Source: Kazachstania africana CBS 2517 (taxonomy: Eukaryota; Ascomycota; Saccharomycetes; Saccharomycetales; Saccharomycetaceae). From it: DNA of 64,000 nucleotides. A program made the translations under genes and the position numbers. A model generated the notes under the pieces. That model made no database searches, had not been told where the DNA came from, and saw only the letters and a list, made by a program, of their open reading frames with translations. The stretch lies in assembly GCF_000304475.1 (NCBI RefSeq), contig NC_018943.1, positions 1 to 64,000 on the forward strand, read 5' to 3'. Positions 7,211 to 21,071 of this stretch are shown piece after piece. Each line of letters opens with the position of its first letter. The stretch's first letter is position 1.

Positions 7211-8308
7211 TTAAATATTCTTTAAAAACGTTTCCTTGTTGACTTTCAAAAATGGATTTGGTAGTGTCATTGCAGCATTTTCCTCGCTTCTTAGTCTTAG
7301 TAGGGTTTCCTCCATATCTTGTAAAGTGTTTGAAGAACCCCCACATGCAATAACTACGACAGTATCGTCCTTCGTTAACTTAGTGCCTAACGCATTTTCT
7401 AGAATGTCAATATTATAAGCTAAATGGATTGACGCACCGCAGGCTGGTTCTGTGACCATATTGTAATCCTTTGTGTATTTTAGGCAAGTCTCAATGACAT
7501 CTGCATCCTTGACAATGACAGATCTTGTGCCGTATTTCAAAGCGTTTTCAAATGTCTTTGCAGATATACTGGCGGTAGCTAATGAAGTAGCTATGCTTGT
7601 GATTTTTTCGAATTCGACTTGTTTACCTAGTTTCAAAGATGTATTGAAGACGTGACAACCTTCTGTTTCTACACCAACAACTGGTATTTTATCAACCAAC
7701 TTGTGTCTTTCAAGGCCTTGAATGATACCGTTGTATAAACCACCACCACCCACGCTACATACTATACCTTTAATGTTAGAAGGTTGGACCTTTTGCTCTC
7801 TAAGTGTATCCATTATTTCATCTACAATGGAGGAGTGACCTTCCCATATTAAAGGATTGTCGAATGGATGTACATAAATGGGATCAATCTCATTCTTATT
7901 TATCTTATTCATCACAGACTTTTTCAAATATTGATCAGCTTCTTTCCAAAATGCTCCATCAATGATGACATTAGCACCAGTATCTTTAATTTTTTCTATC
8001 ATTCTTTGTTTTGTAGCTGTTGGTACGACGACAGTACATGGCAATGACAATCTTTGACATGCGACAGCAGCAGCGTAACCTGCATTACCTCCAGACGAAG
8101 CGAAAACTTCCGGTCTTTTTGTACCTTTTTTATGGATTTGCATAGCTTGTTTGAGGATTAAATTACCGATTCCCCTACTTTTAAAACTACCACTTGGCTG
8201 TAAACATTCATACTTCAAGAAGAACTGAGGAAGACTATTCGATTTTCTGGATTTTGTTCCTGGAAAAAACTGACGCAGAAGAGGTGTCTTATTGTAAACT
8301 ACAGACAT
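7211..8308 (-). CDS. CHA1: catabolic L-serine/L-threonine dehydratase
   Basis: Pyridoxal-phosphate enzyme that deaminates serine to pyruvate and threonine to 2-oxobutyrate, letting yeast use these amino acids as nitrogen source; the S. cerevisiae enzyme is mitochondrial. The 365-residue product is close to the usual 360. The Schiff-base lysine lies in the SFKSRG motif (Lys43), and the glycine-rich phosphate-binding loop reads SVGGGGLYNG. A second glycine-rich stretch near the C terminus (VIACGGSSN) is typical of fold-type II enzymes. It is divergent from VAC17, as in S. cerevisiae chromosome III. In S. cerevisiae it is induced by serine and threonine through Cha4; the long shared upstream region leaves room for this, but I did not identify a Cha4 site with certainty. 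Confidence 0.95.
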   Translation of the reverse strand: MSVVYNKTPLLRQFFPGTKSRKSNSLPQFFLKYECLQPSGSFKSRGIGNLILKQAMQIHKKGTKRPEVFASSGGNAGYAAAVACQRLSLPCTVVVPTATKQRMIEKIKDTGANVIIDGAFWKEADQYLKKSVMNKINKNEIDPIYVHPFDNPLIWEGHSSIVDEIMDTLREQKVQPSNIKGIVCSVGGGGLYNGIIQGLERHKLVDKIPVVGVETEGCHVFNTSLKLGKQVEFEKITSIATSLATASISAKTFENALKYGTRSVIVKDADVIETCLKYTKDYNMVTEPACGASIHLAYNIDILENALGTKLTKDDTVVVIACGGSSNTLQDMEETLLRLRSEENAAMTLPNPFLKVNKETFLKNI

Positions 8309-9051
8309 TATAGTTTAATTTGCTATTCTTTTTTTTAGTATGTTAATTTGATACCTCACAAGAAAGAGAAACAAGTCAAAAAGTACAATGAACATTTCTG
8401 TCGTTCTTTATATATATACTACTTTCAGTACCATTTCTATCGATAAGAACTATATGAGTGAGTAGATACCTTTTTTTTTTGTTTCTTTTTATGCTGCAGT
8501 GGTTTAACTCATCGATTCTTGGCATTTTCACTCGCAATTTGTGATTAGATAGAATGCACATATTCGAGTCGTAGTTCTCTCTTATCTAATTCTGTTCTCG
8601 TTATGTCAATAAAAAATTCGTTATATAAATTTTCCGAATTTTTTAGTGCCAATTGTGAAAATTTAGCAGATAGTGCGGACAATGAATAACATTTTTTTGG
8701 ACGGAAAATGAAATGAAGAGTGTTAGAATGTAGAATAACATTCAAATTTTTTTTTTACTTCTTACCCGGTATTTATCTTATTTGCGGAGACTTATCTCCA
8801 CGGCGGGGTAAGCCCAACCCGATTTGAGAAAAAAATCAGAAATATTGTCACGTGATATGATCCGGGTAGCAGGCTGAAAATCATGTGATGATTAATGCCA
8901 TTGTTGTTGTTATTTTTTTTTTTTTTTTGTTTTTTATTAGAGCATCTCTCATATATTTACTAAAGAGGATCAATTCAGGTCCTACTATAAGCAGCCGGAA
9001 TTACAAGAGTGATAAAAGAATATTACCAACATCCACACTGTTAGTGTAATT
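8309..9051. promoter_or_regulatory. CHA1-VAC17 divergent promoter region
   Basis: A 743-bp shared upstream region. It contains a Reb1-type site TTACCCGG at 8762-8769, a related CCGGGTAG (reverse-strand variant) at 8862-8869, and an E-box CACGTG at 8849-8854 in the Cbf1-type context GTCACGTGAT. A poly-T tract lies near 8916-8930. Reb1 sites with poly-T tracts are typical nucleosome-free promoter elements in yeasts. Binding is inferred from motif matches only. Confidence 0.5.
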
Positions 9052-10251
9052 ATGGCTAGTCTTGTTTCGGACACTCTGCTTCAAAGATCGGAGGAAGCCG
9101 TCTCGCAACTGGAATCGTGGTTAAAACAACAAGAGCAATTGCACCAGACAACGGCAGAATATAAACAATTAAATTCACTTTGTGCAAAATCTAAATACAT
9201 TAGCAATCTGTTAAAGGATGATAGTAGCTCCATTCCACATGATTTGATGGAGCAGAAGGAGAGAAGCTTTATAGTTGAATCATTGATTCATGAATTTAAT
9301 GAAATTTCAACAAAATTAAATGAAATAGTAACACATACTTCACCTCAATCCACAATTGATTCATTCGAACCAAAACCATTGAATTTATTGAGAAAGAACA
9401 AGATACTAGAATCCCCAACAAGATCAAGTCCTGTAACAAGAGGTAGATTGGAAAGGAAAATTAGCATCAATCTATTTCCGATGCACACTACTACTAAATG
9501 TAACTCTGTACCAACGTCTCCCAAATGCAAATCTACTTCAACGTTAAACCAAAGAACCTTACGAAATATCAAATCATACCACTACGGACTGAATGGAGAT
9601 TACATAAATCCATTTAAAGAAAATAATAGACTCTCAATTTCTTTCTTCAATGGTGACAATACATTCAATGATAATAATTCCGATTCTGAAAGTGACATTG
9701 ATGATGACGATACAGTATTGGTGACAAGTCCCTTCTTAACAAATCCGAAACAGAAATTAAAAAGATCAAATTCTCAAGATAGCGTATTCTGGAACGAAAA
9801 TTACTTACGCAAGCCATCTTTTCAGAAACAACTAAACCTCTTTCCAAGTACTTTGACAAAACCGACTGCAGAACTCTCTTCTACTCAAGTATTCTTAAAA
9901 AACACAGGACGTTTGGGTTCCTCGTCTAAAGCTCTACTCACATCGTTTGTCAAAGACAACTTGCAACAGCAACAACGAACTCATAATGCCTCCTCATTCA
10001 ATAACATCTTCAATTCAGTAACATCAGAAATTGGTAAATCCAAACTGGATAAGTCGCAAATAATACACACGGAGAGGAGGGTTTTATCAGATAATTCAAT
10101 TGTAATTTCTACCTTAATCACTTCAAAAAAATCAAGATTCAATCGGTTCTCTTCGGTGGACAATATATCGCCAACCAAAAAACCAATAATAAATAACGAC
10201 GTCCAATATTCAGATTTAAATGATGCTTTAAATACTGAGTTTCTCTATTAA
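9052..10251 (+). CDS. VAC17: vacuole inheritance adaptor, Myo2 receptor
   Basis: In S. cerevisiae Vac17 bridges the myosin V tail (Myo2) and the vacuolar membrane protein Vac8, moving the vacuole into the bud; its phosphorylation and degradation release the cargo. The 399-residue product is near the usual 423. It has a predicted helical N-terminal part (residues about 1-100) and then long Ser/Asn-rich, low-complexity sequence with an acidic patch around residues 212-223, which fits a mostly unstructured adaptor. Sequence is weakly conserved in this family, so the call rests largely on position: directly right of CHA1 and on the same strand as in S. cerevisiae. Confidence 0.85.
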   Translation: MASLVSDTLLQRSEEAVSQLESWLKQQEQLHQTTAEYKQLNSLCAKSKYISNLLKDDSSSIPHDLMEQKERSFIVESLIHEFNEISTKLNEIVTHTSPQSTIDSFEPKPLNLLRKNKILESPTRSSPVTRGRLERKISINLFPMHTTTKCNSVPTSPKCKSTSTLNQRTLRNIKSYHYGLNGDYINPFKENNRLSISFFNGDNTFNDNNSDSESDIDDDDTVLVTSPFLTNPKQKLKRSNSQDSVFWNENYLRKPSFQKQLNLFPSTLTKPTAELSSTQVFLKNTGRLGSSSKALLTSFVKDNLQQQQRTHNASSFNNIFNSVTSEIGKSKLDKSQIIHTERRVLSDNSIVISTLITSKKSRFNRFSSVDNISPTKKPIINNDVQYSDLNDALNTEFLY

Positions 10252-10304
10252 TACCCCATCTATAAACATTATGTAATCATACAAATACTGTAATAAATTA
10301 GCAC

Positions 10305-12519
10305 TCATTCTAGAAAACCGTTTAAGGCATCACTTTCTAAAGCCTTCGCAGCAGCAATCTGCTGAGAAATTTTCTTCGATGTCCCACGACCTTCGCCAAG
10401 GACGACGGCTGTATTTTTAACAAATACGAAACTGTAAAAATCAGTGATAGTCCTTTGAGTGGTGTTGTACTCTGGCAAAAATCCAAACTTATGTAATTCG
10501 GCATATAATTTACCCATGGCCATCTTATCACAAGTATCGTATAGCTCTAAGTCAGGCTATATTGTGGATTAAGTAAATCGGGTCTTGAAAAGGAGGTTTC
10601 AATTTCGTCTTTGCTGTTGTCATTATCGTCAGCATAATTTTCCAAAAGTTCCGGCTTCATTTCATCCTCATTATTCCTCCCCATGAGTTTTGTTTTGTAT
10701 TTTTTATTCTGCAATGCGTCACTTGCAGCTACTTGTTCATCAATCTTTTTATTCGTACGACGTCCACGGCCTAATGTTAAATCTGGCACATGCTTGACAG
10801 TAACAGTAGAGAAAAAGTCATTTAACCCTAATTGAATGGTGACATATTCTGGGAAGTGATTTCTTACACCCAATTCTTTGTATAAGTTGAACTTTGCAAG
10901 TTTGTCGCAAACACTTTTAATTGGAATATTAAAATCAGTGGCACTTTCTTCTTCTTCTTCTTCTTCTTCTTCTTCTTCTTCTTCTTCTTCTTCTTTTCCA
11001 CCTTTTCTCTCCTTTTTGACCTTGGGCCCAGTGTCTCTATTTAGACCGGTATCTGGAGCTTCTTTAAAAATGAAAGAGGAATATGCTTGCTCTGGGGTAC
11101 ACTTTCCTGGAAGAGTTCGTGAGTTTCCAGTGGTGTCATTTGCCAACGCCTTTTCTGCCTTAACGGATATAATAACAGGGACGTTTTCACGCTGAAGAGT
11201 TGGTTCTAACGTATGAGATATTACGTTGTTGTGAGCTTTAGCAGATACAGTTTTAGGTTCTTTTGCAAAAGTTTTAGCCTTTGCCCTGCCATTATTGGAG
11301 GCGACAGCCGTAAGCTTTTCAAGAGGGGAAGAGTTTGAAGGTCTTTTATTTGCTTTTGAAACGGTTTTGGATGGCGCTTCTGCTAAGCAAAAGTCATTTA
11401 GTTTTGTGTCAGTGTTCACTTCTACTGATNNNCAGTTCTCAATAGACATGGTTGCAGCAACGTCATTCTTCGCCGTAATAGGTGATTTGTGTAGCATTTC
11501 AGCCGTTATTTGAGAAACGATGGAAGCCACCTTTTCATTAACGGATTCCATGATTTTTCTTGTTAATAATTCTGGATCGGTATTTGCTGTGGATACTAAG
11601 TTATTTGGTGTCTTTTCAGCACTATCAACTGTTGAAAATATGGAATGCTTGGACAACAAAACTTGATCATTCAGTACTTTTTTGGATACATTGTGTTCTG
11701 TCTCTTGAGTAGTATTAGATGGGTCGCCTATACTTAAAATAGTGTCGCCCAAATGTACGCTCGAAACATATTTACCACCTATATTCTTGGAAATAAATGA
11801 TACTTCATGGTTACTTTTGTTATTTTCCAACAGTTCTATAAGTTGTTGCTTGTAATCTGAAGGGTACAGAACCTTCAAATTAGCATTCTTTAGTTGAGTA
11901 AGCTGCGCGTCACGTACTTCTGCAAGCCAAGTGATGATAGTTTTCATAGCTGGACCATCTTCATCTTGGACCAACGCTCCGATATAAGCTTTGAACCCCT
12001 CAATATTATTGAATTTCTCTGGTAGGCGTATTTTTGAAAGTAACACATTCAAAGCCTCATTAGATAGCATGGCGTTTTCTAATTTCTCCAGAGTGTTTTG
12101 TTTGCTAAAGGAAAACCTATGACATAAAATTCTGGAAAGTAAAGCTGATAACCATTTTTCACCTACGAATTCCAAATTTTCTCTGTGAAGAGGTATCATA
12201 GCCTCCAAATAAGTACTCGTTATGATTGGGAAGTCATTGTATGGGTTATGTAAATTGGAATCAAAATTGTAATAAGCAAAAATTTGGTTAAAGTCAATAG
12301 AGGCTCTTAGGTTGCTAAAATAAGAAGAAATCATAGAAGCAGGAGAGCTTGCAATAAATCTTTCGACTTCGTTGCGGCTGCTTGCATACTTTGCCAACTC
12401 GTGATTGTTTAAAGAATTTTCGTAAATTGTCCTAAGAACTTCTTCTAATTCAACACAGGCGTTTTGTAACTTGAAAAATGCCTCAACGTTGCATCAGAAG
12501 AATAAGAATCATTACTCAT
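10305..12519 (-). pseudogene. DCR1: degenerate budding-yeast Dicer
   Basis: Budding-yeast Dicers have an N-terminal domain, one RNase III domain and two dsRNA-binding domains; Rnt1 has only one dsRBD. Here a long open frame (about 12493 to 10547) carries the RNase III domain (near 12190-11960) and a dsRBD (near 10920-10690), and a second dsRBD follows in another frame (10556 to 10305). Two breaks are visible. The only sensible ATG (12519) opens a frame that must shift near 12450-12493 to reach the main frame, which itself lacks an ATG upstream. The main frame then stops at 10547 while the second dsRBD is open one frame back, sharing only 10547-10556. Catalytic acids are changed: the LEFLGD-type motif reads LEFVGE (Asp to Glu, 12158-12160), and the D-x-x-E pair of the second motif reads Glu...Lys (11999-12001 and 11990-11992). 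Three Ns lie at 11430-11432. Otherwise the frame is long and clean, so inactivation may be recent, or some breaks could be sequencing errors. Confidence 0.75.
10946..10995 (-). repeat. GAA/TTC trinucleotide repeat coding poly-Glu
   Basis: About 16-17 perfect TTC units on the plus strand (GAA on the minus strand) encode a run of about 17 Glu just before the first dsRBD of the Dicer relic. GAA repeats expand easily; length variation between strains is likely. Confidence 0.85.
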
Positions 12520-13232
12520 TTTTGATGCTTCTTACTAGTTCCAAGTTTATTACGGCTGAATGTTGGGTTCATATTTAATTTTTTTTTTTATCATCGAGGA
12601 ATAAGATATTAGACGGGTTTCTATTGAAACGTCGCCGATTTCATTCTAAACCTCATCGATATTAGTAAACGACAGAGAAACAAAGTGTGAAATATTCAAC
12701 CAATTTCTTTCGCTGTGAAATCCTGCAATGGATGCAGAGTGTGAGGGTATGTTAAAGGTGTGATTAAATGCATTTGTTGACATTTGGTGCTGAATATTTC
12801 ATGTGGACGGTCACCTAAATCATGTGGAAATTCATGCTCGGCAATTAGCACAGCAGGTCTAGGTATTAAGCAGTTAAGAAAAACATTCTTTTATATAATA
12901 ATCTTATCTCTCCTGGTCTTGTATTGTATTGGTTGTAAGTGTAGTACTCTTTACTTAAGTTCTTACCGTTGCATCATCCACTGGAATGTTTGTTAGTATT
13001 GCTTTACACTGACACTACTATATAGATTGGCAACCCTATGGAATTAGAACAAATCAAGCATTGGTAACTTTTTCCCATGAGAGACTAATTTGATATTGTT
13101 ATTCAACTTCAAGGCGAGCAACCTTGTCGGATGGAGGGTATTTACGTTTAGCTAGAGCCGCCCAAATTTCAAAGTAAAAGAATTTTAAAATCTATTGAAT
13201 AAGAAAATTAGAAATATTAAAAGTATATATGT
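12520..13232. other. intergenic between DCR1 relic and MRC1
   Basis: About 700 bp without a supported gene. A 70-codon frame at 12784-12996 has no recognisable features. Poly-T/poly-A tracts are present just upstream of the Dicer relic (about 12580-12590). No RNA gene was recognised. Confidence 0.5.
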
Positions 13233-16200
13233 TCAAGACTCAAAACTTTCATCTTGACGACTAAATAATTTACTTGTTCTGGAATTGGTATTTTTTATGT
13301 CACTTGAAGATAAATTAGCTACTTTTTTTTGGGGGGCAACCAGTTTTCTCATTTTACCCATATAAGTGATAGAAGCCTTCGAACTGCTCACACTTTTATA
13401 TGCCTTAGAAACTTTCACTGTTTTAACACCCTCCTGAAATTTATCATTAATGTCAACTGTAGCACTAAATGTTTTCATAATGGATGACGTGCCAACCCTA
13501 CTGTTCAGTAAATCATCAAAGCTATCATCATTTTCTTTATCAAAATCAGTGGGTTCCTGAGATACTGATGCTCTGGTTGTTTTGAAGCTTTTGATCGAGC
13601 TTTGTTTCTTCAGTGCCGTCAGATCCTCAATTAACTCATCATTAGCTTCAGCACGCATGCTTCTAGCTGGCGCAAATTGATCCATATCTTTACTACTGTT
13701 GAGAAAAGATAAAGTTCTCTGAACGAATTCTTCAGAAAGCATGACTTTCTTGGAGGGATTTTGGGAGGCTGCCCCTTCATTGCTGTTTGCATTTTCTTGG
13801 GTCCCATCATCTGTGGTTATGGTCCCACTTCGTTGTGGTTCAAAAACAGCGAAGGGATTTTTAACCTCCACAATGTCGTCAACCATACTTTCAAAAAATG
13901 CCTTAGATTTTGGATTCTTCACCAACGTCTCTGCTTCTCCCACTTCAAGCCTTTTTTGTCTCATCAATTCTCTTCTTTTCAAGCGATATTGCTTCAATTC
14001 ATCATCTTCTTCATCACTTAGCTCGAGATCCATAGCCCCTTTCCTCCTTTTCCTAAAACCGCCATTTTTGATATCATAAAGAATCTTTTCAACCATTTTT
14101 ATATCTGTTTCTTTATTTTCATCTGCAAGCATTTGACGTATCTCATCAGGATTGAAATTTGCCTTGGAGTAATCGTCGATCATTTTCTCAACTTCAGAAT
14201 CGTATTCATCTGACATTTCTCCATCTATACCACCAATACCATGCCATTCATCCTCTGATTCTTCTGCTTCCTCTTCTAAGAAATTAGTGATACCTTTAGC
14301 TTTCATTTCCTTTCTCTTTTTCATTTGTTTCCTCTGCCTTTCCAATTCATGTTGCTTCTTCTCTTCAATCAGCCGTATACGGTCTTTTTCTGGAATTTCT
14401 TCATCACGCTCGTCTCCACTTTCCCTACTGACTTTGAAGTTTTTACCAGATTGTTTTTCAGTGGTAATTCGTATTGGAGCCAAACTTAGATTATCACCGT
14501 ACGGCCCCAAGTTAATAGCGTTTCTATTTTGAAATAGGGAGTCATCTTTCTCTTCACGGATCTGCGCGTTATGTGACATTTTTTCATCTTCAATTTCTGT
14601 ATCAGAGTCTTCAACAATGACTTTCTTCTTTGAACGTTTTGTTTTCTCGAGTGAAAAATCGTCATAATCATTGTCGCTATCAATTGCACTCTCTTCCCCA
14701 GAGAGCTCAGATTCGTCAAGCTCATTAGCACTATGATCAAAGTCGAGATCATTTTCATCATCTTGTGCATCAGCTAATTGTTTTTCCCGTTCTTTTTCTC
14801 TTTGTCTAATTTTTTTATTTCTATTGATTTCTTGTTCTAATAAATTCTCGACTATTTTCTTTTCTTTCTCGATATCCTCTAGATTAAGACCCTTTTTTTC
14901 TATCACTTCCTTCTGATGCTCAATAATTTGTTGACGACTCGCTTTCTGTAGCTTATTAAAAAGTGTATGCAGCGTAGTTTTGCTGTCATTGGAAATCTTA
15001 ACTATCGGTCTCTTCTTGGATAACCTTGCCTTTATATCAAAAACTGTTGCTTTTGACATTTGTGAAATAGGACCCTTTTCTCCCATGCGATCAATCCCAT
15101 CTTCGTCATCAGAGTCTAGATTTAAGTCTATTTGCTGGTCAGAATTGAGTTGTCTCTTTAATTTCAGCTCATAGTTGTTTAGCCCGTGAAGTTTCGGCTT
15201 AAAAGAAGGTGAAGTTCTAGTTTTATCAGGGAGACGCTTTCCATCATTGCTTTTATCAGATGGGCTTGTGTTTTTGAGAAGCTGCACTTTTTGAGAGTCC
15301 CCCTCCGATTCTAAATTTTCCTCCTTCTCCTCATCATCACTGTCGAACTCATCAAAATACGACTCTTTAGTGAATACTATAACATTTTTTGGAGTCCGCA
15401 CATGTTGTTTATATTCAGGTATGGTTTTGGTCTTTTGGGATTCCTCAAGTTCTCTTTGAATCTCATGGATTTTCAGGGTATCTGATACAGTAGCTGAATA
15501 TGAAGTTCCTTCTGTAGTAGAATCTATTTGTGTTTTTAGAACTGCAGAAGTATCCTTTTGCGTCTTGTCCCCTTCTGGTATCGGGAGGGTTGATGCATCA
15601 TCATCAAATTCCCTCGGTATAATCTGTGTGTCTTCTGGTGTTGGATGTCTATTAAATTTATTAGTCTTGTAATCCTGGGTCGAACTAGAATAACTTATTG
15701 GTTGCGTACTATCAGTAATGCTTTGAGTTTCTTGAGTATTATAAATCCCCTGCGTAGATGCCGAGAGAACTTGGGTCATCTGGGTCGCCTGTGTATCAGC
15801 TTCGCGAGCGCTTACTACTTGTGTATCATCTTGAGTGGCAGAGTGAATTACCTGAGTCGATTGATTCACATCAGGGACATACTTGAAATAAGTTCTCGAG
15901 ACGGGGCTGAATTCCTTAGCCAGCTGGGTTGATCCGATGACTTGTGTGGGTTGCATTAATCGTAAATCATTTATATTTCCAGAGCTCTTTGTAAAAGCAT
16001 GCAATTGACCTTTGCTTGCCCTTTTCTTTGTTAATTCCAGCTGTTGTTCATGTAACTGTTGTTTTTCCCTCCTTTCTACTTCTGGAGCATCCAAATCTTC
16101 ACCTCCGCCATAAAGGTTCGAAATAAGCTGAGTTTGGGAGAAATTCATTGTGTACTGAACTACATCTTTTTCCTCGCCATCTAGTCGCTTTTTGATTCTG

Positions 16201-16358
16201 TTTAAAGTAGGATTATCAAATAAAAATCCTTCTCCAGTAAGAGCAGGCGGGTCGTTATTACTCTCAGAAGTGTCATTTTCAAGGTCATCTGAAATTTTTT
16301 TATAGGTAGTCCTCTTCTTTGGTTTTAGAGCTTGTAGATTGCCGAAAATGCCATCCAT
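13233..16358 (-). CDS. MRC1: DNA replication checkpoint mediator (Claspin family)
   Basis: Mrc1 travels with the replication fork together with Tof1-Csm3, speeds fork movement and relays the Mec1 signal to Rad53 under replication stress. The product has 1041 residues (S. cerevisiae 1096). The N-terminal third is packed with about 20 TQ/SQ dipeptides between residues about 70 and 270, the Mec1/Tel1 target cluster expected of this protein. Long acidic and Lys/Arg-rich charged segments follow, then a conserved block with DEEDDELKQYR near residues 776-786. It lies left of KRR1 on the same strand as in S. cerevisiae. Two MCB boxes lie just upstream, consistent with G1/S expression. Confidence 0.95.
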   Translation of the reverse strand: MDGIFGNLQALKPKKRTTYKKISDDLENDTSESNNDPPALTGEGFLFDNPTLNRIKKRLDGEEKDVVQYTMNFSQTQLISNLYGGGEDLDAPEVERREKQQLHEQQLELTKKRASKGQLHAFTKSSGNINDLRLMQPTQVIGSTQLAKEFSPVSRTYFKYVPDVNQSTQVIHSATQDDTQVVSAREADTQATQMTQVLSASTQGIYNTQETQSITDSTQPISYSSSTQDYKTNKFNRHPTPEDTQIIPREFDDDASTLPIPEGDKTQKDTSAVLKTQIDSTTEGTSYSATVSDTLKIHEIQRELEESQKTKTIPEYKQHVRTPKNVIVFTKESYFDEFDSDDEEKEENLESEGDSQKVQLLKNTSPSDKSNDGKRLPDKTRTSPSFKPKLHGLNNYELKLKRQLNSDQQIDLNLDSDDEDGIDRMGEKGPISQMSKATVFDIKARLSKKRPIVKISNDSKTTLHTLFNKLQKASRQQIIEHQKEVIEKKGLNLEDIEKEKKIVENLLEQEINRNKKIRQREKEREKQLADAQDDENDLDFDHSANELDESELSGEESAIDSDNDYDDFSLEKTKRSKKKVIVEDSDTEIEDEKMSHNAQIREEKDDSLFQNRNAINLGPYGDNLSLAPIRITTEKQSGKNFKVSRESGDERDEEIPEKDRIRLIEEKKQHELERQRKQMKKRKEMKAKGITNFLEEEAEESEDEWHGIGGIDGEMSDEYDSEVEKMIDDYSKANFNPDEIRQMLADENKETDIKMVEKILYDIKNGGFRKRRKGAMDLELSDEEDDELKQYRLKRRELMRQKRLEVGEAETLVKNPKSKAFFESMVDDIVEVKNPFAVFEPQRSGTITTDDGTQENANSNEGAASQNPSKKVMLSEEFVQRTLSFLNSSKDMDQFAPARSMRAEANDELIEDLTALKKQSSIKSFKTTRASVSQEPTDFDKENDDSFDDLLNSRVGTSSIMKTFSATVDINDKFQEGVKTVKVSKAYKSVSSSKASITYMGKMRKLVAPQKKVANLSSSDIKNTNSRTSKLFSRQDESFES

Positions 16359-16443
16359 ACCTCCTCAATAGTAGTGATATTTTCTCGAATGAGTAGCTTA
16401 TAATTACTTATTATACCTTTGGTCTCCTGTATAGTGGTGAGTG

Positions 16444-16479
16444 ACGCGTAGCTTTACATATTAAAAAAAGCTTACGCGT
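16444..16479 (-). promoter_or_regulatory. two MCB (MBF-binding) boxes upstream of MRC1
   Basis: ACGCGT occurs at 16444-16449 and again at 16474-16479, 86-121 bp upstream of the MRC1 start codon. ACGCGT is the core of the MluI cell-cycle box bound by Mbp1-Swi6, which drives G1/S transcription of replication genes. Two palindromic copies 30 bp apart in a 214-bp intergenic region are unlikely to be chance. Confidence 0.8.
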
Positions 16480-16572
16480 CGAATAAAAAAAATGAATATC
16501 GATGAAAGTGAAAGTTTTTATTTCCCAAATATTTAATTTACATACAATTTTTGTTTGACATATACATAATAT

Positions 16573-17634
<1,062 letters not shown>

Positions 17635-17662
17635 TTAACCTTGTGTTTGATGCTTTTTAATT

Positions 17663-17741
17663 GAGCTCATCTCAATATGAATTTTTCTACTATGAAAATT
17701 TTTCTTTTTCTTTTAAAATTTAAACTTAGCGAACCTCATCG
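17663..17741. promoter_or_regulatory. RRPE and PAC-like motifs between KRR1 and ADF1
   Basis: TGAAAATTTTTC at 17693-17704 matches the ribosomal RNA processing element. PAC-like cores flank it: GAGCTCATCTC at 17663-17673 (one mismatch to PAC) and CTCATCG at 17735-17741. This RRPE/PAC pairing is the signature of ribosome-biogenesis genes and fits KRR1. Confidence 0.6.
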
Positions 17742-17822
17742 AAATAAAAATTGATTATAGATAAATGATGGTATTATTTATATGAATACGTTCCCTCCAC
17801 ATTAGTTCAACATCTTTAAGCC

Positions 17823-18158
17823 ATGGGTAAGTCTAAAACTGCTAGACAGGCGGGTGGAAACAGAATTAAGAAGATAAAGAGCAGAAAGAATGTAATTTCT
17901 CAATCTGAGAGGAAAAAGAACAAGCTGATAGTGGAAAAATTCAATCAGCAAACGATTACAAATGTCCAAGAATTGAATAAAGACTTGAAGAAAGATAAGA
18001 GAAGACTTTCGAAGACTAAAAATGCATTAGAAACCAAGAAACTACTTCATGATCAAGCCAGAGATCATGAAGTCAAACAAAATATTGAAACTAAATTGAA
18101 AGAGACAGAAGACAGTATGTTAAAACAAATTGAAATGATTTCAGGGTTTTCATTATAA
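17823..18158 (+). CDS. ADF1: small basic nuclear protein, Adf1 (YCL058W-A)
   Basis: A 111-residue, very Lys-rich protein. The C terminus (SMLKQIEMISGFSL) and the basic N terminus beginning MGK match S. cerevisiae Adf1 (113 residues), a small transcription-repressing protein encoded antisense to FYV5. Position between KRR1 and MIC10 is the same. No open frame equivalent to FYV5 is seen on the opposite strand here, which suggests that ADF1 is the conserved coding gene of that pair. The conserved core spans roughly residues 25-111 with a probable coiled-coil or long helix. Confidence 0.9.
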   Translation: MGKSKTARQAGGNRIKKIKSRKNVISQSERKKNKLIVEKFNQQTITNVQELNKDLKKDKRRLSKTKNALETKKLLHDQARDHEVKQNIETKLKETEDSMLKQIEMISGFSL

Positions 18159-18219
18159 ATACTGAAAATGATTATATATACACACGTACAATACTGCAAC
18201 AAATTAACCTATTCCTGTT

Positions 18220-18492
18220 CTAAATTTGCACAGACCTCAAACCTGCATTTGAACGGAATATAGCATCCCCTTCTGAGTATGCCCTACCAAACCCATATCC
18301 TATTCCCAACCAAACAGGGAATGCGCGTCTCTTAAAGAATATTACCGATGTTACCACTCCTACTCCAAACCCAAGACCCACTTTCACTAGCATATTTGAC
18401 AATACCAAATCCCACTTATCATTCAAAATGGATCTATCTATACTATTATTACTGTACTCAGCAGGTTTACCAACCTTATCCTCTTCGCTCAT
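18220..18492 (-). CDS. MIC10: MICOS subunit Mic10
   Basis: Mic10 is the inner-membrane protein that bends cristae junctions in mitochondria. The 90-residue product from the ATG at 18492 (S. cerevisiae 97) has two membrane spans, each with the glycine-rich motif that drives oligomerisation (GLGFGVG and GIGYGFG), separated by the positively charged FKRRAFP loop. The conserved C terminus reads [13 protein letters not shown]. An upstream in-frame ATG would add 22 residues with no counterpart in the family, so the inner start was chosen. It is convergent with ADF1. Confidence 0.95.
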
Positions 18493-18705
18493 CACGTAAA
18501 AGTAGCAATCTACTAATTCACTTTCTATCCGTCCTTCCAATACGTTTATCCACATCATATAAATCGAAATTCAAATTAAATCCTTATGAGAGTCGCATTC
18601 CCGTTCTAAGATTTGATTGGCCCTACAACAACAAATATACATATATACAAATATTCAAAGATTTATAACAAGGATCTCCATAATGCATTCATCCAGAGAG
18701 GATAC

Positions 18706-18888
18706 TTACGAGTCTTCTACGATATTCGTAGTCTCTTCATTAACCTGGACTTGGAAAACATTTAAACCATCACAGTAAACTTGCCCATTACCCTCTCGCA
18801 CGGTCCAAGCTACGTCCAATTTCCAAATTCTTCGGTTCTTTGTATCGTGCTGGCGTATTTTGGAACTAATGAGAGAAAGTATATACAT
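18706..18888 (-). other. uncertain small ORF, possibly spliced
   Basis: A 60-codon frame starting 12 bp from the PRD1 start on the opposite strand. The second half has a protein-like composition (Trp, Val, Asn, Cys and Gly mixed, no low complexity). The frame ends in a stop created within CTCGTAAGTAT, a plausible 5-prime splice site. A TTGTTGTTGTAG acceptor about 85 nt downstream would keep the frame open for about 15 more residues. No TACTAAC-like branch point is visible and I do not recognise the product, so it may be chance. Confidence 0.2.
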
Positions 18889-18899
18889 GAATTGAGCAC

Positions 18900-21071
18900 A
18901 TGCTTAATCGTCTTTCTCGACTTGTTATTCCTTCGAGGAAATCCTTTCTATCGTTAGTGTGTATCCCCGCCACATCGTACTTAGTGTATAATAGGCTTTA
19001 TTCGAACATGACAATTTCTGCATTTATTGCCCCTCAAGCTGCTCCATCATGGAATTGGAACCCATCTAGGTTATTATTCGACGCTGAATGTGTAATTGAT
19101 AATTCAAATAGGCTTTATGATGAACTTTCATCTCTAAAAAAGCCTACTGTCGAAAATCTCGTCAGGCCATACATGATTCATGAGAACAAGATTAGTCCCT
19201 TGATCAATAAATTGTGCTTCTTACAACATGTCTCTGAAGACCCAAAGATAAGAGAAGCTTCTCTCAAGGCTACCGAATTACTCCAGAAGTTTGAAATTGA
19301 AGCTTCCTTAAGACACGATCTTTTTTTACAATTTGATAAGATTTGGCAAGAAATCTCAGAAAAGAAGGATGATTTTGTTAAAGAGTATGATTTCGAGACT
19401 TGGAAGTTCATTGAGAAAGTTCATAAGGATTACGTCCGTTCTGGTTTGAACTTACCAGAAGACAAGAGAGAAAAAATCAAAGAAATTAAAATCAAAATTG
19501 GTAATAACTCTTTACAATATTCTAAAAATTTAGGTGAACAGAAAGAGTTGATTGCCTTCACAAGGGAAGAATTAGATGGTGTGTCTGATGCAGTCTTCGA
19601 ACAATTCGAAAAATTCATCGATGAAGAAACGGGTGAAGAGAAATTCAAAGTCACTTTCAAATATCCTGATATTTTCCCTGTCTTAAAAACTGCTAAGAAT
19701 CCAGAAACAAGAAGAAAGGCTTTCCTGGCAGATCAAAATAAGGTCCCACAAAATGAAGACCTTTTCGTGGAAACGTTAAAATTGAGAAATGAATTAGCTA
19801 CAACCCTGAATTATTCGACTTACGCCAATTACAATTTAGAAGAAAAAATGGCCAAGAGACAAGAAACTGTTTTAGATTTTTTAAATGACTTGAAGTACAG
19901 GTTGAAACCATTAGCAATGAAAGAAATTTCAATTTTGAAGGATATAAAGCAAAAAGAATGTAAGGAATTGAATCGTGAATATGACAGTCACTATTACATA
20001 TACGATCACAGGTACTATGATAACAAGTACTTGAAAGATAATTTCAATGTAGATCTGGAAGCCATCTCCGAATATTATCCATTGGAACATACTATCAATG
20101 GTATGTTGAAAATTTATGAAGAGCTATTCAAATTGAAATTTAACGAAGAAACAAAAAATAAATCAGTATGGCACGAAGATGTTAAACAACTGGCTGTCTG
20201 GAAGATGGATAATCCAGAGAAACCTGAATTTGTTGGTTGGATTTATTTTGATTTACATCCAAGGGATGGTAAATATGGCCATGCTGCCAATTTCGGTATC
20301 TCGTCCTCCTACGTAGATATCGAAACAGGAAAGAGATCATATCCAGTCACTGCATTAGTCTGTAACTTCTCAAAGTCCACAGCTACCAGACCATCGTTGT
20401 TGAAACACAATGAAATTACCACATTTTTCCATGAATTAGGTCACGGTATCCATGATTTGGTTGGTAAAAATAAATTATCTAGGTTCAATGGTCCTGGCGC
20501 TACGCCATGGGATTTTGTCGAAGCACCATCTCAAATGTTAGAATTCTGGACTTGGAACGCAAATGAACTAAAGTCCTTATCTTGCCACTATGAATCAAAT
20601 GAAAAAATTCCAGATGATTTACTCACTTCATTAATCAAAACTAAGCACGTTAATGGTGCTCTTTTTGCTTTGAGACAGCTGCATTTTGGTTTATTTGATA
20701 TGACTGTTCATACAACAAATAACGTAGAAAGTTTAAACCTGTTGAAATTATGGAATGAATTGAGAGAAGAGATTTGTTTAGTTGAGACTGGTCACGAATT
20801 ATCAAAAGGCTATGATTCCTTTGGTCATATAATGTCGGATTCTTATTCCGCTGGTTATTATGGTTATATGTGGGCCGAAGTCTTTGCAGCTGATATGTAT
20901 CATACAAAATTCTCTCCAAATCCATTAGACAGTGAAGTTGGTGTCCAATACAGAGACATTGTTTTGGCTAATGGTGGTTTATATGAAATTGCCGACAACT
21001 TACGTGATTTCTTGGGTAGAGAGCCATCAAAGAACGCATTCTTGAAGGAGCTCGGCTTAGATGCAGCTTGA
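18900..21071 (+). CDS. PRD1: saccharolysin, thimet-type zinc metallopeptidase
   Basis: Oligopeptidase of family M3 that degrades short peptides, including mitochondrial presequence-derived ones, in the cytosol and intermembrane space. The product has 723 residues (S. cerevisiae 712). The zinc motif HELGH begins at residue 511, within FFHELGHGIHDL. The N-terminal 36 residues are basic and hydrophobic like a mitochondrial presequence; an internal ATG at 19009 would remove them, so two forms are possible. It is convergent with PEX34. Confidence 0.95.
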   Translation: MLNRLSRLVIPSRKSFLSLVCIPATSYLVYNRLYSNMTISAFIAPQAAPSWNWNPSRLLFDAECVIDNSNRLYDELSSLKKPTVENLVRPYMIHENKISPLINKLCFLQHVSEDPKIREASLKATELLQKFEIEASLRHDLFLQFDKIWQEISEKKDDFVKEYDFETWKFIEKVHKDYVRSGLNLPEDKREKIKEIKIKIGNNSLQYSKNLGEQKELIAFTREELDGVSDAVFEQFEKFIDEETGEEKFKVTFKYPDIFPVLKTAKNPETRRKAFLADQNKVPQNEDLFVETLKLRNELATTLNYSTYANYNLEEKMAKRQETVLDFLNDLKYRLKPLAMKEISILKDIKQKECKELNREYDSHYYIYDHRYYDNKYLKDNFNVDLEAISEYYPLEHTINGMLKIYEELFKLKFNEETKNKSVWHEDVKQLAVWKMDNPEKPEFVGWIYFDLHPRDGKYGHAANFGISSSYVDIETGKRSYPVTALVCNFSKSTATRPSLLKHNEITTFFHELGHGIHDLVGKNKLSRFNGPGATPWDFVEAPSQMLEFWTWNANELKSLSCHYESNEKIPDDLLTSLIKTKHVNGALFALRQLHFGLFDMTVHTTNNVESLNLLKLWNELREEICLVETGHELSKGYDSFGHIMSDSYSAGYYGYMWAEVFAADMYHTKFSPNPLDSEVGVQYRDIVLANGGLYEIADNLRDFLGREPSKNAFLKELGLDAA

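Follow-up and report, generated by a model that had tools for sequence, protein, structure and literature searches.

A candidate family of non-catalytic Dicer paralogs in the budding yeast Kazachstania africana

Budding-yeast RNAi is described, in excerpts of one article, as a streamlined pathway with Dicer and Argonaute as its known core, and DCR1 and AGO1 are enough to rebuild RNAi in Saccharomyces cerevisiae (PMC7528652). According to the same excerpts, siRNA levels in vivo are normal only with both double-stranded-RNA-binding domains (dsRBDs) of the budding-yeast Dicer, and the second of them (dsRBD2) has been proposed as a stand-in for Dicer accessory factors (PMC7528652). Active RNAi is spoken of, in part of a further article, for a yeast group that includes K. 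africana (PMC7888664).

Excerpts of the RNase III literature record that the E. coli mutant enzyme E117K (rnc70) binds dsRNA, leaves it uncut and showed dominance over the wild-type enzyme on lambda N mRNA (PMC8708148), that rnc70 gel-shifted viral dsRNA without cutting it (PMC3621894), and that A. aeolicus E110K RNase III has been co-crystallised with dsRNA (1rc7, 1yyo). Substitution of another catalytic acid is recorded there with a different outcome: E. coli D45E or D45N is weakly active in vitro and binds dsRNA poorly (PMC8708148). Among the titles and abstract openings listed in a literature search, none describes Dicer duplicates in K. africana; Wolfe 2015, Gordon 2011 and Drinnenberg 2011, which lie outside that search, may mention them.

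Here we analyse a DCR1-derived gene in the first 64,000 bases (the window) of the 1,026,673-base K. africana CBS 2517 contig C4, together with profile searches that covered the 11,130,140-base, 12-contig genome.

Reading frames and domains of the window copy

The DCR1-derived gene occupies window positions 10305-12519 on the minus strand and has two frame breaks. The ATG of the 5' frame (12517..12519) is in a different frame from the main one; by homology with DCR1, the passage from one to the other occurs at five consecutive T (12474..12478, placed by eye). The main open frame (10547..12493) consists of 648 codons with 0 stops (12493-10550), followed by a TAG (10549-10547). The third frame (10305..10556) consists of 83 codons (10556-10308) and a stop (10307-10305). 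Two stops seven bases apart flank the 3' break, and the longest base run there is two. An intron was considered as the cause of the breaks and rejected, since no yeast-type 5' splice signal is seen by eye near either break. The gene also contains three N (11430..11432), the sole N run of the 64 kb window, and a perfect TTC/GAA microsatellite of 16.7 units (10946..10995) that the main frame reads as consecutive Glu codons.

The neighbours are a VAC17 homolog (9052..10251, plus strand) and a gene for an MRC1-domain protein (13233..16358, minus strand). From 7211 to 21071, the order by Pfam names is CHA1-like PALP enzyme, VAC17, MRC1, KRR1 and M3 peptidase, which we take to resemble the left arm of S. 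cerevisiae chromosome III.

All domains described here are on the minus strand. As in budding-yeast Dicers, the N-terminal domain Dicers_N is present (12254..12490); the genome search scores it at 89.6 bits, above the cut-off, and in the main frame it reaches 84 bits against a Pfam cut-off of 27. It is followed by a degenerate RNase III domain (Pfam-matched part, 12008..12181; Ribonuclease_3 score 24.3 in the main frame, just below the cut-off of 27) and by dsRBD1 (11669..11854; Pfam dsrm 22.8 bits, just below the cut-off of 23). Residues 527-600 of the main frame form a dsRBD2-type domain, dsRBD2a (10694..10915; 42.4 bits and i-E 1.2e-13 with the Dcr1 dsRBD2 profile). The third frame carries dsRBD2b, which scores 71.5 bits with the same profile and 24.3 with dsrm, over the Pfam cut-off of 23, is 41% identical to dsRBD2a and ends like the C-terminus of DCR1. 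The C-terminal dsRBD2 of Dcr1 is therefore present in the window locus both in frame (2a) and out of frame (2b), and the single continuous frame of Dcr1 is absent from the window copy as assembled. Because a further dsRBD2-type domain sits inside the main frame, the locus has three dsRBDs. Two dsRBD2 matches of more than 14 bits each are unique to the window copy among the Dcr1-type sequences profiled; the Rnt1-like sequence P0044 also has two dsRBD2-profile matches (39.7 and 22.2).

The best solved relative of the main frame is K. polysporus Dcr1 (3RV0, E 2.1e-24), and identity to K. africana DCR1 is 29.8%. Taken together, the E-values and the stop-free length indicate a Dicer-derived gene beyond chance. 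The initial annotation had identified a budding-yeast Dicer from one RNase III domain and two dsRBDs, with the start codon and the second dsRBD out of frame. Dicers_N and the match to 3RV0 bear out the Dicer origin, and the two breaks are as described; the dsRBD count, however, is three, and the out-of-frame dsRBD is the third, preceded by dsRBD2a in frame. A predicted model of the first 345 main-frame residues (mean pLDDT 76.6, pTM 0.42) resembles Dcr1 domain by domain, with uncertain placement of the domains.

Dicer-type genes and catalytic sites in the genome

The genome contains an open DCR1-type gene on contig C1 (KAFR_0A03070, 562 aa) with all four catalytic acids (Dicers_N 126.9, Ribonuclease_3 68.7 and dsrm 68.9 bits). 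A check for AGO1 elsewhere in the genome, which had been proposed earlier, finds an AGO1-type gene of 1296 aa on C5 (Piwi 221, AGO_N 201, Ago_N_1 154 and PAZ 33.7 bits); the Piwi search gives this one match, over the cut-off and within a 1301-codon open frame. Judged by sequence, the window locus is a DCR1-derived paralog and not the cell's Dicer. The earlier reading of the locus as a sign that Dicer was lost does not hold, and with an open DCR1-type gene and an AGO1-type gene in the genome, loss of RNAi in K. africana is not supported.

The Dicers_N genome search gives five matches at four loci, three of the five over the cut-off. Besides DCR1 and the window copy, there are two further DCR1-derived loci with altered catalytic sites; we refer to these two and the window copy as the dead copies. 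The chromosome 1 copy (C1 623887-625606) is oriented opposite to DCR1, which is ~4 kb away, and has a frame break within its N-terminal domain. The chromosome 3 copy (KAFR_0C03740, C3:763425-765611; Dicers_N 26.6 bits against 27) is annotated as a hypothetical protein; it is an unbroken 729-aa product with a ruined catalytic site. Other RNase III genes and matches are an Rnt1-type gene on C2, a match on C9 and a match on C1 at 458713. Between DCR1 and the chromosome 1 copy lies an 867-codon open frame that by eye resembles a zinc-cluster regulator. In Naumovozyma dairenensis, there are two Dcr1-type proteins, NDAI_0K00140 and NDAI_0E00120 (P0013 and P0016), each with four catalytic acids; both genes are numbered low, suggesting places near chromosome ends.

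We take catalytic positions 1-4 of the window copy to be the equivalents of E. coli E41, D45, D114 and E117, and A. aeolicus E110 to be the equivalent of the last. At position 1 (12170..12172, minus strand, as are the others), Glu is retained. Position 2 (12158..12160) and position 3 (11999..12001) are changed from Asp to Glu, and position 4 (11990..11992) from Glu to Lys; K. polysporus Dcr1 E224Q (3RV1) has Gln at the last of these. The window copy thus reads E,E,E,K where Dcr1 has E,D,D,E, as the initial annotation had noted. The pattern E,D,D,E is present in 37 of 37 aligned sequences P0003-P0039 and in all five Rnt1-like sequences P0041-P0045; the truncated P0040 covers the last two catalytic columns only. 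The corresponding columns are Q,E,G,E in the chromosome 1 copy and E,S,gap,K in the chromosome 3 copy. An indel error cannot yield a Glu-to-Lys change, in accordance with the earlier remark that the Lys is not a sequencing slip. The Lys that the chromosome 3 copy has in common with the window copy may have arisen by convergence. Since the aligned sequences came from a catalytic Dicer query, diverged dead copies in other genomes could be missed.

Pooled over the three copies, catalytic columns are kept less often (3/12) than other conserved RNase III columns (92/155; p 0.022). The excess of catalytic loss is also seen in the chromosome 1 copy alone (p 0.029) and is not significant in the window copy (p 0.41) or the chromosome 3 copy (p 0.36) alone. 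All three retain Phe at the position equivalent to E. coli F42, a residue that presumably plays a role in the RNase III dimer. In being an RNase III relative with replaced catalytic residues, the window copy is like a non-catalytic partner subunit.

Conserved columns were counted over 33 sequences, with dsRBD2 extracted by a motif pattern that left 16 family sequences, missed 17 Dcr1 sequences and favours sequences bearing the motif. For dsRBD2, 12/18 highly conserved columns are kept in the chromosome 3 copy, 12/18 in window dsRBD2a, 15/18 in window dsRBD2b and 18/18 in the chromosome 1 copy. The counts in the chromosome 3, window and chromosome 1 copies are 25/53, 23/53 (aligned columns) and 47/60, respectively, for RNase III, and 9/23, 10/23 and 20/23, respectively, for dsRBD1. 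By these counts dsRBD2 is the best-preserved part, among sequences chosen by the motif. With the Dcr1 dsRBD2 profile, DCR1 scores 122.8 bits, the chromosome 1 copy 105.8, the chromosome 3 copy 53.1 and the window domains 42.4 and 71.5. Under the generic dsrm model, the chromosome 3 copy has a higher-scoring dsRBD2 (38.9 bits) than DCR1 (36.6), and the predicted structure of this chromosome 3 domain has pLDDT >90; the window dsRBDs are absent from the seven matches of the genome-wide dsrm search.

The DCR1 query gave 55 protein matches, namely DCR1 itself (P0002), the 43 that were aligned (P0003-P0045) and 11 left out (P0046-P0056). Each protein search scored about 8,000 candidates, those with the most words in common with the query; among these, the chromosome 3 protein matched itself only and the window protein had zero matches. 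In a tree of 41 of the 48 aligned sequences, a 100/100 branch parts 38, including all three dead copies, from three on the Rnt1 side, which places the dead copies with Dcr1. Branch lengths in changes per column are 3.91 (window copy), 7.22 (chromosome 3) and 1.23 (chromosome 1), and because the branches are long, the order of the dead copies inside the Dcr1 side is not fixed by the tree. Three one-clade AU tests (p-AU 0.436, 0.281 and 0.439) neither reject nor demonstrate a common origin of the dead copies.

Coding constraint and the cause of the frame breaks

There are 0 stops in the frames of 648, 729 and 527 codons. Given the codons present, the stop-free main frame limits strictly neutral time to about 0.032-0.041 substitutions/site (95%). 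In a neutral simulation, DCR1 was drifted to the observed identities and stops were counted per 328 codons (60 runs at each of two settings). For the window copy, the simulated mean is 15-17 stops and the minimum in 120 runs is 7, against 0 in the main frame, indicating that most of its divergence accrued under coding constraint. The simulated values are 17.5-18.4 (minimum 10) for the chromosome 3 copy and 11-13 (minimum 4) for the chromosome 1 copy. The stop argument holds equally for KAFR_0C03740, which has 0 breaks. The codon log-odds per codon is 0.200 in the main frame and 0.152 in DCR1; synonymous codon choice carries no signal in any copy, DCR1 included (-0.03 to 0.03). Protein identity between the paralogs is 20-47%, and synonymous sites between them are therefore judged saturated.

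By a rough calculation, the probability of three catalytic replacements inside the neutral cap is at most about 0.005. Together with the cap, this suggests that the window copy probably lost catalysis at a time when its frame was still being maintained, i.e., before the reading frames were lost. The earlier claim that cleavage was probably lost irrespective of the breaks is in line with this order of loss.

An ordinary pseudogene, i.e., a Dicer duplicate that decayed after duplication without ever coming under selection as a non-catalytic protein, would fit the two frame breaks, the ruined catalytic site, the long branch (3.91) and the second frame-broken copy that adjoins DCR1. However, 0 stops in 648 codons at 29.8% identity is not what such decay predicts, the simulation giving at least 7 stops per 328 codons in 120 of 120 runs, and a paralog with a ruined active site is unbroken; we consider this explanation unlikely. 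Conversely, the window copy could today be unbroken and encode a non-catalytic Dicer paralog, with both breaks being assembly errors. Homology puts the 5' break within five consecutive T, the sole N run of the window is inside the gene, and the genome is presumably of the 454 era. Errors of this kind are harder to invoke for the 3' break, which lies between stops seven bases apart with runs of at most two bases, and the main frame has its own TAG after dsRBD2a. An explanation of both breaks by assembly error is accordingly held to be improbable.

The main frame by itself has a Dicer architecture, with dsRBD1 and dsRBD2a ahead of its TAG, and could be a working shorter gene that discarded dsRBD2b, with its 5' end misread or with a start at the internal ATG at 12334. 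It is dsRBD2b, however, that is better preserved (71.5 versus 42.4 bits) and has the DCR1-like end, and translation from 12334 would omit most of Dicers_N (12254-12490), leaving a shorter gene quite unlikely. Programmed frameshifting that fuses the three frames into one protein would agree with the common direction of both frame changes and with the T run at the 5' one. It seems very improbable, since no X XXY YYZ heptamer is found by eye at either place, the 3' overlap between stops is just seven bases, and the programmed shifts known to us in budding-yeast chromosomal genes are +1.

Proposed role and comparison with known systems

Copies predicted not to cut, one of them unbroken, suggest a dsRNA-binding job rather than RNAi loss. 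We favour, with a probability of roughly two in three, the reading that these loci encode non-catalytic Dicer paralogs that act as dsRNA binders or Dicer partners, with the window copy broken recently or only in the assembly. Retention of dsRNA binding is the leading reading because the unbroken chromosome 3 paralog exists. After duplication, the copies would have lost cleavage yet remained proteins that bind dsRNA as subunits built on an RNase III fold. Each might pair either with Dcr1 or with itself, keeping dsRNA or siRNA duplexes bound and uncut. The effect would be either to aid siRNA hand-over to Ago1 or to damp Dicing; as a brake, a dead copy would occupy dsRNA or pair with Dcr1. The frame of the window copy would have been lost recently, or be broken only through base-level errors, and that of the chromosome 3 copy would still be kept open. 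A kept dsRBD2 and dimer fold without cutting are what would allow a dead copy to act as an Ago1-feeding partner or a brake. Since E. coli D45E and D45N bind dsRNA poorly, dsRNA binding by the RNase III part of the window copy is not assured.

More specifically, and tentatively, the Dicer duplicates may be non-cutting dsRNA-binding partners of their own Dicer, as counterparts of R2D2 or TRBP, or a brake on RNAi, with KAFR_0C03740 as the living member and the window copy, with its extra dsRBD, as one recently silenced. A natural set of cutting-dead Dicers that coexists with an open Dicer and Argonaute would stand out as an uncommon example of Dicer turned regulator or cofactor. The idea is directly testable, because DCR1 and AGO1 rebuild RNAi in S. 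cerevisiae.

Like the budding-yeast Dcr1 proteins (K. polysporus 3RV0, Naumovozyma, KAFR_0A03070), the window copy has Dicers_N, a linker and dsRBD2; between Dicers_N and the linker it has candidate RNase III and dsRBD1 domains with scores just below the Pfam cut-offs. It differs from them in having E,E,E,K for E,D,D,E, three dsRBDs and two breaks. R2D2, Loqs and TRBP are Dicer partners, and the likeness we propose to them, as dsRBD proteins beside Dicer, is one of analogy. Unlike the dead copies, none of them is a Dicer paralog that carries an RNase III domain; the match to chains of this type concerns the chromosome 3 copy only and reflects the general dsRBD fold. In trypanosomes, KREPB7 and KREPB8 are among the kin of KREPB6. 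For KREPB6 and kin, part of one article describes non-catalytic RNase III relatives kept as partners of catalytic editing endonucleases (PMC9508840). They belong to another organism and pathway and have other domains, and the corresponding pairing in K. africana would be a parallel drawn from sequence. The laboratory binding-only mutant rnc70 carries Lys at the equivalent of the catalytic Glu that is Lys in the window and chromosome 3 copies. In contrast to rnc70, the window copy is a natural paralog with further changes and a Dicer architecture, and its dsRNA binding is predicted by analogy with that mutant.
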